Assembly (NCBI GenBank): GCA_027620495.1
Contig: JAQCEA010000018.1
Coordinates: 1-38,490 of the forward strand
Length of the DNA stretch: 38,490 bases
Direction: 5' to 3'
DNA from: Pseudomonadota bacterium
Lineage (GTDB): Bacteria; Pseudomonadota; Alphaproteobacteria; Puniceispirillales; Puniceispirillaceae
A program made the translations under genes and the position numbers. Every line of letters starts with the position of its first letter. Position 1 is the first letter of the stretch. Shown here piece by piece: positions 19,969-24,799 of the stretch. The notes below the pieces were generated by a model. It saw only the letters and a list, made by a program, of their open reading frames with translations, made no database searches and had not been told where the DNA came from.

Positions 19969-22287
19969 TTACCCAGCCTTTCTATCAATCTGTTTATTAT
20001 GCAAAATATCAAAAATTTTCTGTGGTGTGACCGGCATGTCAACATGCTGTATGTCAAGCGCGTCACACACCGCACCAATAACCGCTTGCGGCGCGCCAAT
20101 CGCCCCGGCCTCTCCCGACCCTTTGATTCCCAAAATATTATTTTTGCAGGGCGTGTTATGCATGTGGATGTCTAGCGGCGGGAAATGATCTGCGCGCGGC
20201 ATCGCATAATCTAGAAATGATCCAGACAGGATTTGCCCGTCATCATCATACACCACATGTTCATAAAGGGCCTGTCCCACACCTTGGGCGATCCCGCCAT
20301 GGATTTGGCCAGACAGCATCTGCGGATTAATCACCAGACCAAAATCATCAACCACGGTAAAGCGTACCAGCGCCACCGCACAGGTAGCAGGGTCAATTTC
20401 AACCTCGGCAATATGACATCCATAGGGGTAAGTCGGCCCCGCGGTTTCATAGTTATGGGCAATATTTAGTGGATGCGGCTGGCCCACCACCGCCAGCTTT
20501 GTCACCAAATGTTCCAAATCAATGGAACGGTTGGTGTTTTGCGCGATATATAAGCCATCTTCAAATCGAATCTGGTCTTCGCTTGTTTCCAAAAATTGCG
20601 CCGCATAGGGCAAGGCGGTGGTGATGATTTTTGCCGCCGCCTCGGCGGTTGCCGACCCCAAAATAGCGGTCATGCGCGCGCCGCCGGTGGTACCGCGCAA
20701 ACCACGTGCTGAATCGCCCTGCATCACCGTTATTTTATCAGCGTCATAAGACAGCCTGTCAGATAAAATTTGTGTCAAAGTGGTGCGATGTCCCTGCCCG
20801 TTACATTGTTGCGCCGCATGTAAAATCACCCGCCCATCGTCAAAAAATTCAATTTCTACGCCGGAATCAGTGCCGCCACCACATTGTTCAAGATACATGC
20901 CAAAGCCAATGCCGCGCAGCCGCCCATTTGCCAAAGCCTGCTGTTTTCGTGCGGCAAATCCAGCAACATCTGCCCGGTCCACCGCCATATCCAGCAAGGC
21001 GGGCATATCGCCAGAATCAATTGTGCCACCAACTGGCATTTTATAGGGAATTTGCGACGCTTTGATCATATTTAGCTTGCGGATTTCAACCCGGCTCTTG
21101 CCGGTGATGCTGGCAATATGATCCAGCAGACGTTCCATCAGATAATTCGCTTCGGGGCGACCAGCACCGCGATAGGCATCGACAGCTGGCGTATTGGTCA
21201 CCACACCAATCACCCGCAAGCTGGTGGCTGGAATATCATAAATTGTGGTTAATGTACGACAGCCCGACATGGTGGGGATATAGGTCGAAAAATTTGATAG
21301 CCAGGCCCCCATATTGGCGTGCGCGGTAACTTTCATCGCATGGATTCGACCATGTTCATCAATCATCGCAGAGGCTTGTGATCGGTTATCACGCCCGTGA
21401 AGATCGGCAACAAATGCTTCTGACCGATGTTGCTGCCACCGCACCAACGCCCCAAGCCGCCGGGCCGCCCATGCCAAACAGATTTGTTCAGGGTGCAGGA
21501 AAATTTTAAATCCAAAGCTGCCGCCAACATCTGGCGTGCGCACTCGCACTTTATCCAATGGCATTGACAGGGCTGTGGCAATTTGTTCGGCAATGCCAAC
21601 AGGCCCTTGTGTACCGCACCAAATATCTAAACTATCAGGGGCATCACCCGGACCAGCCAGCATTGGCCGTGTTTCAATCGAATTAATCACCACGCGGCTA
21701 TTCACCACATCAATGTCAACACGTTGCCACCCGTTTTGTTTGGCCTGTGCAAACGCCGCGTTTGCACCCATGTGATTGCCAGCATGCCAGTCAAAAACGA
21801 TATTATTTTTATAGCAATCATAAAGTTGCGGCGCACCATCTGCCATCGCCGCATAGACATCAGTCACGGCTGGCAGGGGGTCAAAAGATGCCGCGATCAA
21901 TTCAACCGCATCATCGGCTTGGGTTTGCGTGTCGGCAACAACCATCGCCACAATATCGCCAGCGTTGCGATTGATATCGCGCACCATGGCTGGTTTTGTT
22001 GTCATTGGCATTTTGCTGCCATCAAAATTTTCAATTTGAAGCTGACAATGAATCTCGCCAATTTGATCAGCGTCAAGATCTGCCTGACTTGCCACAAGCC
22101 GGACCCCCGGGGCGATTTCAGCCGCGCTGTAATCAAGGCTTTTCAATCTGGCATGTGCATAAGGCGCGCGCAAAAATGCAACCCGCAACCCAGCGCCGGG
22201 ATCCACATCATCCGTGTAACACCCACTGCCGGTGATAAACCGTCTGTCCTCTACCCGCCCGACTGACTGACCAACGCCAAATTTCAT
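19969..22287 (-). CDS. Molybdenum hydroxylase large subunit, CoxL-like form II
   Basis: A 772-residue molybdopterin-cytosine-dinucleotide-binding subunit of the xanthine oxidase/aerobic CO dehydrogenase family. The small N-terminal domain starts GQSVGRVEDRRFITGSGCYTDD. The active-site loop is AYRGAGR, the form II signature rather than AYxCSFR of true CO dehydrogenase, so CO is unlikely to be the substrate. The catalytic Glu is in GSGEAGAIGAP. The C-terminal half contains QQCNGQGHRTT. GGGAG lies 7 bases before the ATG. These enzymes normally work as heterotrimers with an FAD subunit and a 2Fe-2S subunit encoded beside them; neither is present here. The neighbours are a CDP-alcohol phosphatidyltransferase upstream and msrB directly downstream. 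The substrate is unknown. Confidence 0.9.
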   Translation of the reverse strand: MKFGVGQSVGRVEDRRFITGSGCYTDDVDPGAGLRVAFLRAPYAHARLKSLDYSAAEIAPGVRLVASQADLDADQIGEIHCQLQIENFDGSKMPMTTKPAMVRDINRNAGDIVAMVVADTQTQADDAVELIAASFDPLPAVTDVYAAMADGAPQLYDCYKNNIVFDWHAGNHMGANAAFAQAKQNGWQRVDIDVVNSRVVINSIETRPMLAGPGDAPDSLDIWCGTQGPVGIAEQIATALSMPLDKVRVRTPDVGGSFGFKIFLHPEQICLAWAARRLGALVRWQQHRSEAFVADLHGRDNRSQASAMIDEHGRIHAMKVTAHANMGAWLSNFSTYIPTMSGCRTLTTIYDIPATSLRVIGVVTNTPAVDAYRGAGRPEANYLMERLLDHIASITGKSRVEIRKLNMIKASQIPYKMPVGGTIDSGDMPALLDMAVDRADVAGFAARKQQALANGRLRGIGFGMYLEQCGGGTDSGVEIEFFDDGRVILHAAQQCNGQGHRTTLTQILSDRLSYDADKITVMQGDSARGLRGTTGGARMTAILGSATAEAAAKIITTALPYAAQFLETSEDQIRFEDGLYIAQNTNRSIDLEHLVTKLAVVGQPHPLNIAHNYETAGPTYPYGCHIAEVEIDPATCAVALVRFTVVDDFGLVINPQMLSGQIHGGIAQGVGQALYEHVVYDDDGQILSGSFLDYAMPRADHFPPLDIHMHNTPCKNNILGIKGSGEAGAIGAPQAVIGAVCDALDIQHVDMPVTPQKIFDILHNKQIDRKAG

Positions 22288-22323: not shown

Positions 22324-22932
22324 CTAGCGTGCGGCAAACATGCTGTGGGCCATATAAATACGTGTGCCGGTTGTCACCCAGCAGAGCAAACCAAACCCCC
22401 ATGCCAAATAGGCAAAATAATTTGGCCATAATGCCATCGCACAAAGAAGCAAAATCGTCTCAAATCCCTCGGTCAATCCGCCAAGGTAATAAAATGCCTT
22501 TTTCCCGCGAATATCCGTTTCGATATTGTGTTTCGCCGCCAAAATTGCAACGCCTAAAAAGCTGCTAGCGGTGCCCATAAAGCTGACGCATAAGAAACAA
22601 GCCGCAATCGCATGGTCTGGATTGGCAATGGCGAATGCCAACGGCATGGCGCTGTAAAATATAAAATCCACCACCAAATCAAGATAACCGCCAAAATCAG
22701 TCTGGCCAGAGGCCCGGGCAACCGCGCCATCCAGCCCATCAGCCACACGGTTCAAAATGATCATCCAAAGGCCAATAAAGGCCAGATCAACAGCAATAAA
22801 GAGAAAAGCCAGCAGACCAAAACCAGCCCCAGCAACCGTGACATGATTGGCAGTGATCCCAAAGCCAGCAAGCCAGCGGCCAATGGGGTCCAAACCGCGA
22901 TCAATCCATGGTCGAAGTTTGGCATCAAACAT
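22324..22932 (-). CDS. CDP-alcohol phosphatidyltransferase family membrane protein
   Basis: A 202-residue integral membrane enzyme that transfers a phosphatidyl or similar group from a CDP-alcohol to a second alcohol. The metal-binding motif reads DGAVAR then a 7-residue spacer, G81, Asp85 and Asp89 (DG-x2-AR-x7-G-x3-D-x3-D), one residue shorter than the textbook spacer of eight. About five or six hydrophobic segments are visible. ATG 22932 (MFDAKLRPWID) starts 2 bases past the stop of the Psd-like gene, so they are translationally coupled. Position next to a psd homologue suggests phosphatidylserine synthase, but the N-terminus does not resemble the usual PssA. The acceptor alcohol is therefore undecided. 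Confidence 0.85.
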   Translation of the reverse strand: MFDAKLRPWIDRGLDPIGRWLAGFGITANHVTVAGAGFGLLAFLFIAVDLAFIGLWMIILNRVADGLDGAVARASGQTDFGGYLDLVVDFIFYSAMPLAFAIANPDHAIAACFLCVSFMGTASSFLGVAILAAKHNIETDIRGKKAFYYLGGLTEGFETILLLCAMALWPNYFAYLAWGFGLLCWVTTGTRIYMAHSMFAAR

Positions 22933-22934
22933 TT

Positions 22935-23648
22935 TTATGCCCCGGCAGGCACGGATGATGGCAGACGTGCCAAAATTGTTTCGGCGGCAACAACATGCTG
23001 GCCAATGGCCATATCGCTGATACTGGCCGCCGGGACATAGATATCCGTCACCCCGGCAAGACGTGCCATACCGATGGGATCGGCCACCGCAAGATGTTTG
23101 CCCTCTGACAGGCGGCACACCAGCTGGCGCGCTGTTTTGGTAGCAAGCTGAACCATCACCACCTCATGGCCTTGTGCGTGGCGCAGGGTGATTTCACGTC
23201 GTTCATTCAAGCGGCGCACATCTTCCCAGCTATCTTGATGGCGGTCATGATTGGCTTGATCAATATCTGGCCAGGGCGCAAACAGCCCGGGAAACAAGCA
23301 ATTATCAATAAGATGGCCGGTTATCGGGCTGATTTGCAACTGTGTATCGGATAATTTTGTGCGGATGGTTATTCGTACAGCATCATATGACAGCGGCATA
23401 ACACCGGTATCTGCCGGACAATGTTTAATCTGGACAATACGGCCATCAACCGGGGCAACAACCACATCGTCACCCGGTGGCGGCAGGCGGTTTGGCACCC
23501 GCAATATATGCGCCAACCACATCATAACACCAAGCAGAAAACAGCCAACTGGCAAGGCCACAAAACTGACAAGGATCGTCACCGCACCAGCCACCGCCAG
23601 TACCGGCCACCCTTCAACAGCAATGTCAACATTTGTAAGACGGTTCAT
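22935..23648 (-). CDS. Phosphatidylserine decarboxylase-like protein lacking the pyruvoyl site
   Basis: A 237-residue protein with the layout of short-form phosphatidylserine decarboxylase (Psd). It has two hydrophobic N-terminal segments (about 13-48), then LRVPNRLPPP and APVDGRIV (Psd: FRDPxR and SPADGRV), with the Asp kept at 68. The His of the Psd DVHVNRSP motif is Gln103 in DTQLQISP. The Gly-Ser pair where Psd cleaves itself to form the pyruvoyl group (RFGSRVD) is replaced by Ala198-Gly199 in RLAGVTD. I checked the codons there and saw no frameshift. By family knowledge the protein should not mature or decarboxylate, so it may be a pseudoenzyme or have a new role. It is coupled to the phosphatidyltransferase gene downstream. 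The Shine-Dalgarno sequence is weak. Confidence 0.82.
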   Translation of the reverse strand: MNRLTNVDIAVEGWPVLAVAGAVTILVSFVALPVGCFLLGVMMWLAHILRVPNRLPPPGDDVVVAPVDGRIVQIKHCPADTGVMPLSYDAVRITIRTKLSDTQLQISPITGHLIDNCLFPGLFAPWPDIDQANHDRHQDSWEDVRRLNERREITLRHAQGHEVVMVQLATKTARQLVCRLSEGKHLAVADPIGMARLAGVTDIYVPAASISDMAIGQHVVAAETILARLPSSVPAGA

Positions 23649-23716: not shown

Positions 23717-24799
23717 CTAATTTGTGGCACCAGGTTTTGGTAGCGCAAAAATCTGGTTCGGGTAAATCAGGTCAGGATTATCAATATCGCCGGTATTGTT
23801 TCGGACAATATCAATATAGCGCACACCTTTGCCAAAGCTGCGATAGGCAATCCGCCACAAGGCATCGCCCTTATTCACAACAACAAGCTGTGACCCATCC
23901 AGTCCCTTTTGCAAATCACGGGTACGTACCGGCAACAGATAGCGCGCCACTGCTTGCCCAGCATTATCAACCAGCACAAATTCAAGACGGTGGGTGTTGC
24001 GGTTCTGATCAACCTGTCCAGTCACCTGCCAACTGCCATCTGCCAAGACCAACGCGTCACCAAAAAAGGTGCCGTTTGTGCTGACCGTAACACGCACCCC
24101 ACCGCGTGATTGGCCGCCAATTGATAACTTGGTTTCGTCCTGCCAGACCAGACTGCGCGGGCCAATTTGCGCCACTGTGCTTGTTGGTGCGGCATCAGAG
24201 GTGCTTGTTTCTGTTTCATCATCCGGAGACTGCAGCAAAACCGGCATTTCTGTCTGGTTTTCAGGCAATAATGCCACCAATGGTTTGGTGGATTGGTCGG
24301 CATAAATCTCTATCGCAATACTGGTTTCAGCCATAATTGCGCCGCCATCTTTAAGTTCTGCCGCGACCGATATCAGATGCTGGCCGGGGCCAAGACGTTT
24401 TTCCAGAACAACGACCCATTCGCCATTGGCATCAGCGGTGGTTTTGCCAAGCAGGATTTTATCTTCAAACACGCTGATCACTGCCCCCGGCGGCGCACTG
24501 CCCGCCACCACCGCCGCCCCATCAGGTTTGACCCGTGCAATCTCTATGCTGAGCGTAGGTTCGGCACTTGGTTGCGTATCCAATGCGGGCGATTCAGGCG
24601 TCGCCAGATCGACTTGTGATGCGGGGGCATTGTTGTCGGCCGCGTTTGCCGGTTCATCAACTGGTTTACTTGATAGATCAATTGACTGGGTTTGTGGTGC
24701 CACTTCAGCGGTTTCATCATCACCAAAAAAAACCACACCAAGCGCCAGCGCGACAAGCACACCACCAACACCAAAGAGCATGTAGAGAATAAAGCGCAC
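23717..24799 (-). CDS. Membrane-anchored LysM protein with Ig-like repeats
   Basis: A 360-residue envelope protein. It has an N-terminal membrane segment (FILYMLFGVGGVLVALALGV), then an acidic, Ala/Pro/Thr-rich linker to about residue 80. Two similar beta-rich modules follow that resemble bacterial Ig-like domains (GAVISVFEDKILLGKTTADANGEW and a second with GTFFGDALVLADGSW). A C-terminal LysM domain (VVNKGDALWRIAYRSFGKG ... NPDLIYPNQIFALPK) should bind peptidoglycan. The start is GTG at 24799 with GGAAG 7 bases upstream. Proteins of this build are frequent in alphaproteobacteria, with no fixed function. It is the first gene of the presumed operon with the Psd-like gene, 68 bases upstream of it. 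Confidence 0.85.
   Translation of the reverse strand: MRFILYMLFGVGGVLVALALGVVFFGDDETAEVAPQTQSIDLSSKPVDEPANAADNNAPASQVDLATPESPALDTQPSAEPTLSIEIARVKPDGAAVVAGSAPPGAVISVFEDKILLGKTTADANGEWVVVLEKRLGPGQHLISVAAELKDGGAIMAETSIAIEIYADQSTKPLVALLPENQTEMPVLLQSPDDETETSTSDAAPTSTVAQIGPRSLVWQDETKLSIGGQSRGGVRVTVSTNGTFFGDALVLADGSWQVTGQVDQNRNTHRLEFVLVDNAGQAVARYLLPVRTRDLQKGLDGSQLVVVNKGDALWRIAYRSFGKGVRYIDIVRNNTGDIDNPDLIYPNQIFALPKPGATN

Follow-up and report, generated by a model that had tools for sequence, protein, structure and literature searches.

The window, by which we mean the whole analysed stretch of 38,490 nucleotides, belongs to the SAR116/Puniceispirillum group (family f1) and carries on its minus strand three neighbouring genes that we call lysM, psdX and cdpX. 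The central gene psdX (22935..23648) encodes a polypeptide of 237 amino acids which, judged by its open reading frame, Pfam score, alignment and structural model, is a paralogue of phosphatidylserine decarboxylase (Psd) that is predicted to be catalytically dead. Upstream lies lysM (23717..24799), which was recognised by Pfam and neighbourhood comparison as the gene for an Ig-like and LysM protein. Downstream lies cdpX (22324..22932), which according to its open reading frame, Pfam score and alignment encodes a CDP-alcohol phosphatidyltransferase of 202 amino acids with the motif DGLDGAVAR...GGYLDLVVD. In the window, the stop codon of psdX is followed by 2 bases and then by the ATG of cdpX, and 68 bases separate psdX from lysM; in some genera the gap between psdX and cdpX reaches about 70 bases.

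The lysM gene is located directly upstream of psdX in 48 of 48 genomes. The gene order alaS, a 741-amino acid gene (where found), LOG, lysM, psdX, cdpX, xdh, msrB, EF-hand and aroE occurs family-wide, with gaps; the names alaS, xdh, msrB and aroE are our assumptions from the look of the sequences. The large-subunit gene which follows cdpX in most of the family loci read (19969-22287 in the window, minus strand) is a second variable gene of the cluster, and we take its product to be a xanthine-dehydrogenase-like large subunit. It is absent after cdpX at L040, L051, L210-L213 and L215 and at the loci of the sister families.

CdpX matches PF01066 with 37.7 bits (cut-off 22) and its catalytic motif is intact, with D65, G66, D68, G69, A72, G81, D85 and D89 invariant in 13 of 13 aligned proteins. 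By profile, the solved structures nearest to it are those of AF2299 and of PI(P) synthases (E 1e-8 to 2e-6), and the catalytic motif is shared with the CDP-alcohol phosphatidyltransferases of the PIPS/AIPS type. Unlike these, CdpX scores below every NCBIfam cut-off (the PgsA model gives only 20 bits) and its own genome contains no match to the inositol-phosphate synthase family, which leaves a role as PI synthase unsupported. According to the accessible text of PMC3378450, CDP-alcohol-type cardiolipin synthases occur in Alphaproteobacteria, with PGP synthases as outgroup. A role of CdpX as cardiolipin synthase is not supported: among 289 genomes of the class, 65 have CdpX, 94 have a PLD match (not necessarily all synthases) and 23 have both, so that no anticorrelation is seen (Fisher p 0.65). 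No PLD-type cardiolipin synthase was matched in the window's own genome (G000); its sole PLD-domain match resembles another enzyme, presumably a polyphosphate kinase.

Psd homology and predicted fold of PsdX

Residues 48-226 of PsdX match PF02666 (PS_Dcarbxylase) with 62.6 bits (Pfam cut-off 22, E 5.3e-17), and the protein remains below all NCBIfam equivalog cut-offs for Psd, the best score being 113.8 bits versus 252. An AlphaFold2 model built from 18 sequences (mean pLDDT 80.7, pTM 0.71) predicts a hydrophobic N-terminal helix (model residues 13-50) followed by the β fold of Psd; the input alignment for the structure comprised 17 of the 19 PsdX loci L061-L079, all except L065 and L078. The hydrophobic N-terminal segment is present in 41 of 41 PsdX proteins, with a maximum 19-residue hydropathy of 2.0-2.75.

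Five entries of E. coli Psd superpose on the model over 136-140 residues at 2.6 Å with Z scores of 9.9-11.4, the best of them being 7cnx (Z 11.4, 137 residues, 2.6 Å). The Psd homology claimed in the initial annotation is therefore borne out, both by the Pfam score and by a predicted fold like that of the E. coli enzyme. Chains of IIA-Glc are tied with E. coli Psd in this comparison (Z 11.9 and 11.4, respectively), so the model is informative about fold and not about function. Among the first 50 Foldseek matches are IIA-Glc and PsiD; E. coli Psd is not among them, and the A1 profile matched no solved structure by sequence. The likeness of the predicted domain to the IIA-Glc and M23/LytM fold comes with no demonstrated sequence relation and gives no functional hint.

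PsdX shares with the short-form Psd proteins (PF02666; PRK05305 set) the fold, the order of the motifs, the hydrophobic N-terminal segment, the Asp of APxDG and the C-terminal AGET. It differs from them in that the Gly-Ser pair is replaced (by Ala-Gly or Gly-Gly in most core members), the His is replaced in most members, other residues that canonical Psd keeps invariant are gone, and the NCBIfam equivalog cut-offs are all missed.

Loss of the catalytic residues

The PsdX motifs APVDG (Asp68), DTQLQISP (Gln103) and RLAGVTD (Ala198-Gly199) provide the residues that align to the Asp, His and Gly-Ser of canonical Psd, the latter two lying in DVHVNRAP and RFGSRVD. Counted from the ORF start at 23648 on the minus strand, the codons for Ala198-Gly199, in the place of the Gly-Ser self-cleavage pair, occupy 23052..23057, the codon for Gln103, in the place of the catalytic His, occupies 23340..23342, and that of the retained triad residue Asp68 lies at 23445..23447. 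The numbering of these residues in the initial annotation proved right when aligned with canonical Psd.

The sites were compared in an alignment covering 41 of the 48 PsdX genomes, which leaves out L038, L044, L052, L156 and the genomes behind L225, L240 and L243. A Gly-Ser pair is found at the cleavage site in none of these 41 proteins: position 199 is Gly in 33, Ser in three, Pro in three and Ala in two, and the three with Ser have no Gly before it. Position 103 is occupied by Gln in 29 proteins, by His in seven and by another residue in five, and position 68 by Asp in 38 and Glu in three. The PsdX proteins of L038, L044 and L052, outside the alignment, have Ala-Gly and Gln, and in that of L156 position 103 is His and the site again lacks Gly-Ser. 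Ser and His are present at these positions in all 119 other homologues, which comprise 58 canonical alphaproteobacterial proteins and 61 more distant ones from the best 80 of 110 relatives, obtained with search patterns that do not cover the cleavage site. Of the two replacements that orthologues were expected to share, the loss of Gly-Ser is common to the whole alignment, whereas Gln103 is not universal.

A sequencing error that hides a Gly-Ser pair can be ruled out, because the loss of the Ser at this site recurs in orthologues across the SAR116 family. An alternative pair at the cleavage point was rejected as well: Gly-Ser or Gly-Thr occurs at 198-199 in none of the 41 proteins, and the protein encoded in the window has no such pair within the region of about 185-212. 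Pairs of this type are found within that region in 14 of the 41 proteins; in 11 of these the pair occupies 189-190, some ten residues ahead of the site. The superposition on the E. coli Psd chains ends at PsdX model residues 197-198 (E. coli residue 252), next to the Gly253-Ser254 bond, and the predicted structure thus supports the placement of the lost cleavage site beside the equivalent of this bond.

Mutants of E. coli Psd indicate what such replacements would mean. The accessible part of the published study (PMC7952604) reports that S254A abolished cleavage, that H144A and H144N had no decarboxylase activity and still cleaved slowly, that G253A was about 70% cleaved after a longer time, and that D90 mutants kept activity. 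On these data, the loss of the Ser is the decisive change in PsdX. The equation of the His of the short-form DVH motif with His144 is based on motif order and not on residue-level superposition. The proposal that PsdX should be unable to mature or to decarboxylate in the way of Psd is supported by its residues together with these mutants, and its classification as a pseudoenzyme is well supported.

The changes extend beyond the catalytic positions. Phe48, Phe49, Phe96, Asn105, Arg106 and Arg175, which all 58 canonical alphaproteobacterial Psd proteins share without exception, are lost in PsdX. All 25 core PsdX proteins have gained Gly21, Ile25 and Gly40 in the hydrophobic segment as well as Arg145, Arg151 and Glu152, and position 152 is Glu or Asp in all 41.

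Distribution, origin and selection

Of 61 family genomes, 55 contain cdpX, among them all 28 with a completeness of at least 90% and a contamination of no more than 5%. Its flank was inspected in 49 of the 55, and a psdX-like ORF adjoins cdpX in 48; the remaining one, G028, has a partial match at which its contig stops. A group of orthologues without the catalytic pair, as considered in the initial annotation, is therefore found across the SAR116 family. The canonical psd that was to be looked for in the same genome (estimated 100% complete) is also present, with an intact RFGSRVD, at another location where it adjoins a pssA-like gene. In a set of 61 genomes that includes the window's own and also sister families, a Psd match occurs in 45, and many f1 genomes have a divergent second one.

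Among the best 80 of 110 relatives, 19 (L061-L079) encode PsdX and the remaining 61 have Ser at the cleavage site. The contigs of these 19 are labelled SAR116 or Puniceispirillum in 11 cases, Alphaproteobacteria only in seven and Rhodobiaceae in one (L075). In the search of 289 genomes of the class, 194 have a Psd match, and among the 30 loci listed the 28 outside the family are canonical. The genomes G077, G116, G138, G208 and G237 from this search have two Psd-like matches each, the second of which may be a further divergent paralogue. A published Psd pseudoenzyme of this kind, or a SAR116 Psd paralogue, was not found in the accessible parts of the open-access literature.

In the sister families f2-f4, cdpX is present in 20 of 24 genomes. 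Upstream sequence is available at 19 of these loci, and in all 19 the distance from the end of lysM to cdpX is -3 to 37 bases, without an intervening Psd gene. Since the sister families have lysM and cdpX with nothing between them, psdX was probably inserted there in the family ancestor; insertion at the base of the family, rather than loss elsewhere, is the simplest reading. Homologues of CdpX without PsdX occur in these sister families and elsewhere in Alphaproteobacteria. In nine of the 27 non-family alphaproteobacterial loci read (L143, L144, L146, L148, L150, L151, L164, L169 and L170), a canonical psd and a pssA-like gene stand directly ahead of cdpX. This arrangement suggests that psdX could be a direct remnant of an ancestral psd-pssA-cdpX cluster, an origin that we do not favour because the sister families have lysM-cdpX without Psd. 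Within the same order, no PF02666 match was found in the f2 genomes G040, G043, G049, G052, G056 and G058 (96-99% complete) or in the f3 genomes G038, G041, G044, G047 and G050 (61-88% complete), which may lack the phosphatidylserine decarboxylase route.

In a quick maximum-likelihood tree, 21 PsdX proteins form one clade with an SH-aLRT of 97, or 89 when five divergent members from the same locus are included. From L061-L079 the tree contains only L072, L073, L076 and L077, and L038, L044 and L052 were left out; it came with warnings about long branches and does not single out the psd that was duplicated to give psdX. Pairwise dN/dS values (Nei-Gojobori) are 0.076-0.219 for psdX (12 core pairs), 0.049-0.262 for cdpX (12 pairs) and 0.023-0.106 for canonical psd (six pairs), and the divergent PsdX give 0.10-0.36 (four pairs, one with dS above 2). 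The psdX gene is thus kept under purifying selection. Identities between the window's proteins and other same-genus copies are 48-51% for PsdX and 62-66% for CdpX, leaving aside the nearest copy, L040 (79% and 88%).

Two of the 48 genomes have a psdX whose reading frame seems to be broken. At L052 (4826-5446, psdX of G010) it ends early in a different C-terminus, in the manner of a frameshift, and at L038 (2487-3047, psdX of G015, same contig as L078) the N-terminus is not in frame, yet the match extends upstream. Both breaks look like frameshifts, due to assembly error or recent damage.

Genus g7 allows the proposed partners of PsdX to be told apart. A canonical Psd is found in none of its ten genomes, five of which have at least 90% completeness and no more than 5% contamination, the best Pfam score being 29 bits. 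With respect to CDP-alcohol phosphatidyltransferases, a high-scoring PgsA-like protein occurs in seven of the ten genomes, cdpX in all ten, and a third one in none. The psdX-cdpX pair is present in seven of seven inspected g7 genomes. Since it is kept without canonical Psd or PssA, PsdX seems to be independent of Psd and of PssA-made phosphatidylserine.

Seven of the ten g7 genomes (L222, L224, L226, L227, L228, L229 and L230) encode a second, separate Psd-like protein, which has FGG in place of FGS and Ser or Asn in place of the Asp of APxDG. The copy at L054 has its best score with a canonical Psd from SAR116, and one of its neighbours is related to a gene at a canonical psd locus (L029); on both grounds the protein looks like a canonical Psd that turned non-catalytic in place. 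Three pairs gave dN/dS values of 0.10, 0.26 and 0.82, the last with a dS of only 0.06.

Possible functions of PsdX

We favour, with moderate confidence, the explanation that PsdX is a retained non-catalytic membrane partner of CdpX, derived from an inserted Psd paralogue and devoid of cleavage and decarboxylation. At the base of the SAR116 family (Puniceispirillum and its kin), a Psd paralogue would have settled between lysM and cdpX and would have lost self-cleavage and decarboxylation, after which selection would have kept a non-catalytic membrane protein. PsdX would most likely stay uncleaved and anchored in the inner membrane through the hydrophobic segment at its N-terminus, and might serve CdpX as a subunit, stabiliser or lipid-presenting factor. 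The invariant residues gained and the canonical ones lost in core PsdX suggest new contact surfaces, for which CdpX would be the likeliest partner. Among the functions proposed in the initial annotation, the link to the phosphatidyltransferase is the best supported, through synteny, and a lipid-binding pseudoenzyme is compatible with the data.

Several observations count against a partnership with CdpX. PsdX is more variable than CdpX, and the gap of about 70 bases in some genera separates the two genes. CdpX does not need PsdX in general, since homologues occur without it, and because lysM (48 of 48 genomes) and other cluster genes are kept too, the partner of PsdX could be another protein. 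With respect to the loss of catalysis, seven of the 41 PsdX proteins keep His103, three have Ser199 and 11 have Gly-Ser or Gly-Thr at 189-190. We put forward only tentatively, as something short of probable, the wider proposal that the Psd scaffold is an obligate non-catalytic CdpX subunit throughout the family, that the canonical Psd of g7 independently became Gly-Ser-less, and that g7 has no phosphatidylserine route to phosphatidylethanolamine.

It is rather unlikely, though still plausible, that PsdX binds lipids or senses the membrane alone, or together with the LysM protein or another cluster product instead of CdpX. The hydrophobic segment in 41 of 41 proteins and the constant position of lysM directly upstream agree with such a role, whereas the loss of Phe48, Phe49, Phe96, Asn105, Arg106 and Arg175 makes a Psd-like binding of phosphatidylserine appear doubtful, and a pairing with LysM fits poorly with the spacing in the window, where 2 bases separate psdX from cdpX and 68 separate it from lysM.

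We consider it unlikely that PsdX acts as a prozyme-like helper that alters how the cell's own canonical Psd matures or works. The trypanosomatid S-adenosylmethionine decarboxylase (AdoMetDC) prozyme belongs to another family and another host. It resembles PsdX in being a dead paralogue of a self-cleaving pyruvoyl decarboxylase that stands beside an active one in the cell, and by analogy it is the nearest precedent in mechanism. In trypanosomes the dead AdoMetDC paralogue acts on its active partner, so that activation of a pyruvoyl decarboxylase by such a protein has been described, as reported in the accessible parts of PMC5201418 and PMC6221367. A canonical-scoring Psd (above 120 bits) that might be helped in this way is present in 28 of 37 family genomes. 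PsdX differs from the prozyme in that its genetic neighbour is a phosphatidyltransferase and in that it persists where no active paralogue is found: psdX-cdpX is kept in g7, with canonical Psd in none of ten genomes, and in G025 (94% complete), which has no PF02666 match. Moreover, neither cdpX nor lysM is found at any of 17 canonical psd loci of the family (flanks up to 1.5 kb).

New chemistry on the Psd scaffold, the remaining suggestion of the initial annotation, is very unlikely. The gained polar residues Arg145, Arg151 and Glu152 of the core proteins, with Glu or Asp at 152 throughout, might be taken to indicate it, but they lie in one stretch that could be a surface or folding motif, and the proposal has no positive support because neither a nucleophile nor a His is conserved among the 41 proteins and the former active site drifts among genera. 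That psdX is a decaying pseudogene on its way out can be practically dismissed, since a full-length open frame in most genomes and dN/dS values clearly below 1 in all 12 core pairs, and of 0.10-0.36 in four of four divergent pairs, outweigh its faster evolution relative to canonical psd and the two apparently broken frames.

Pseudoenzymes are known in many enzyme families. As a predicted non-catalytic partner of CdpX, PsdX offers a sharp and testable case of a dead lipid enzyme that would have been recruited beside a lipid synthase. Since Pfam scores psdX as a decarboxylase, the gene could be misassigned in metabolic models of the SAR116 ocean bacteria.
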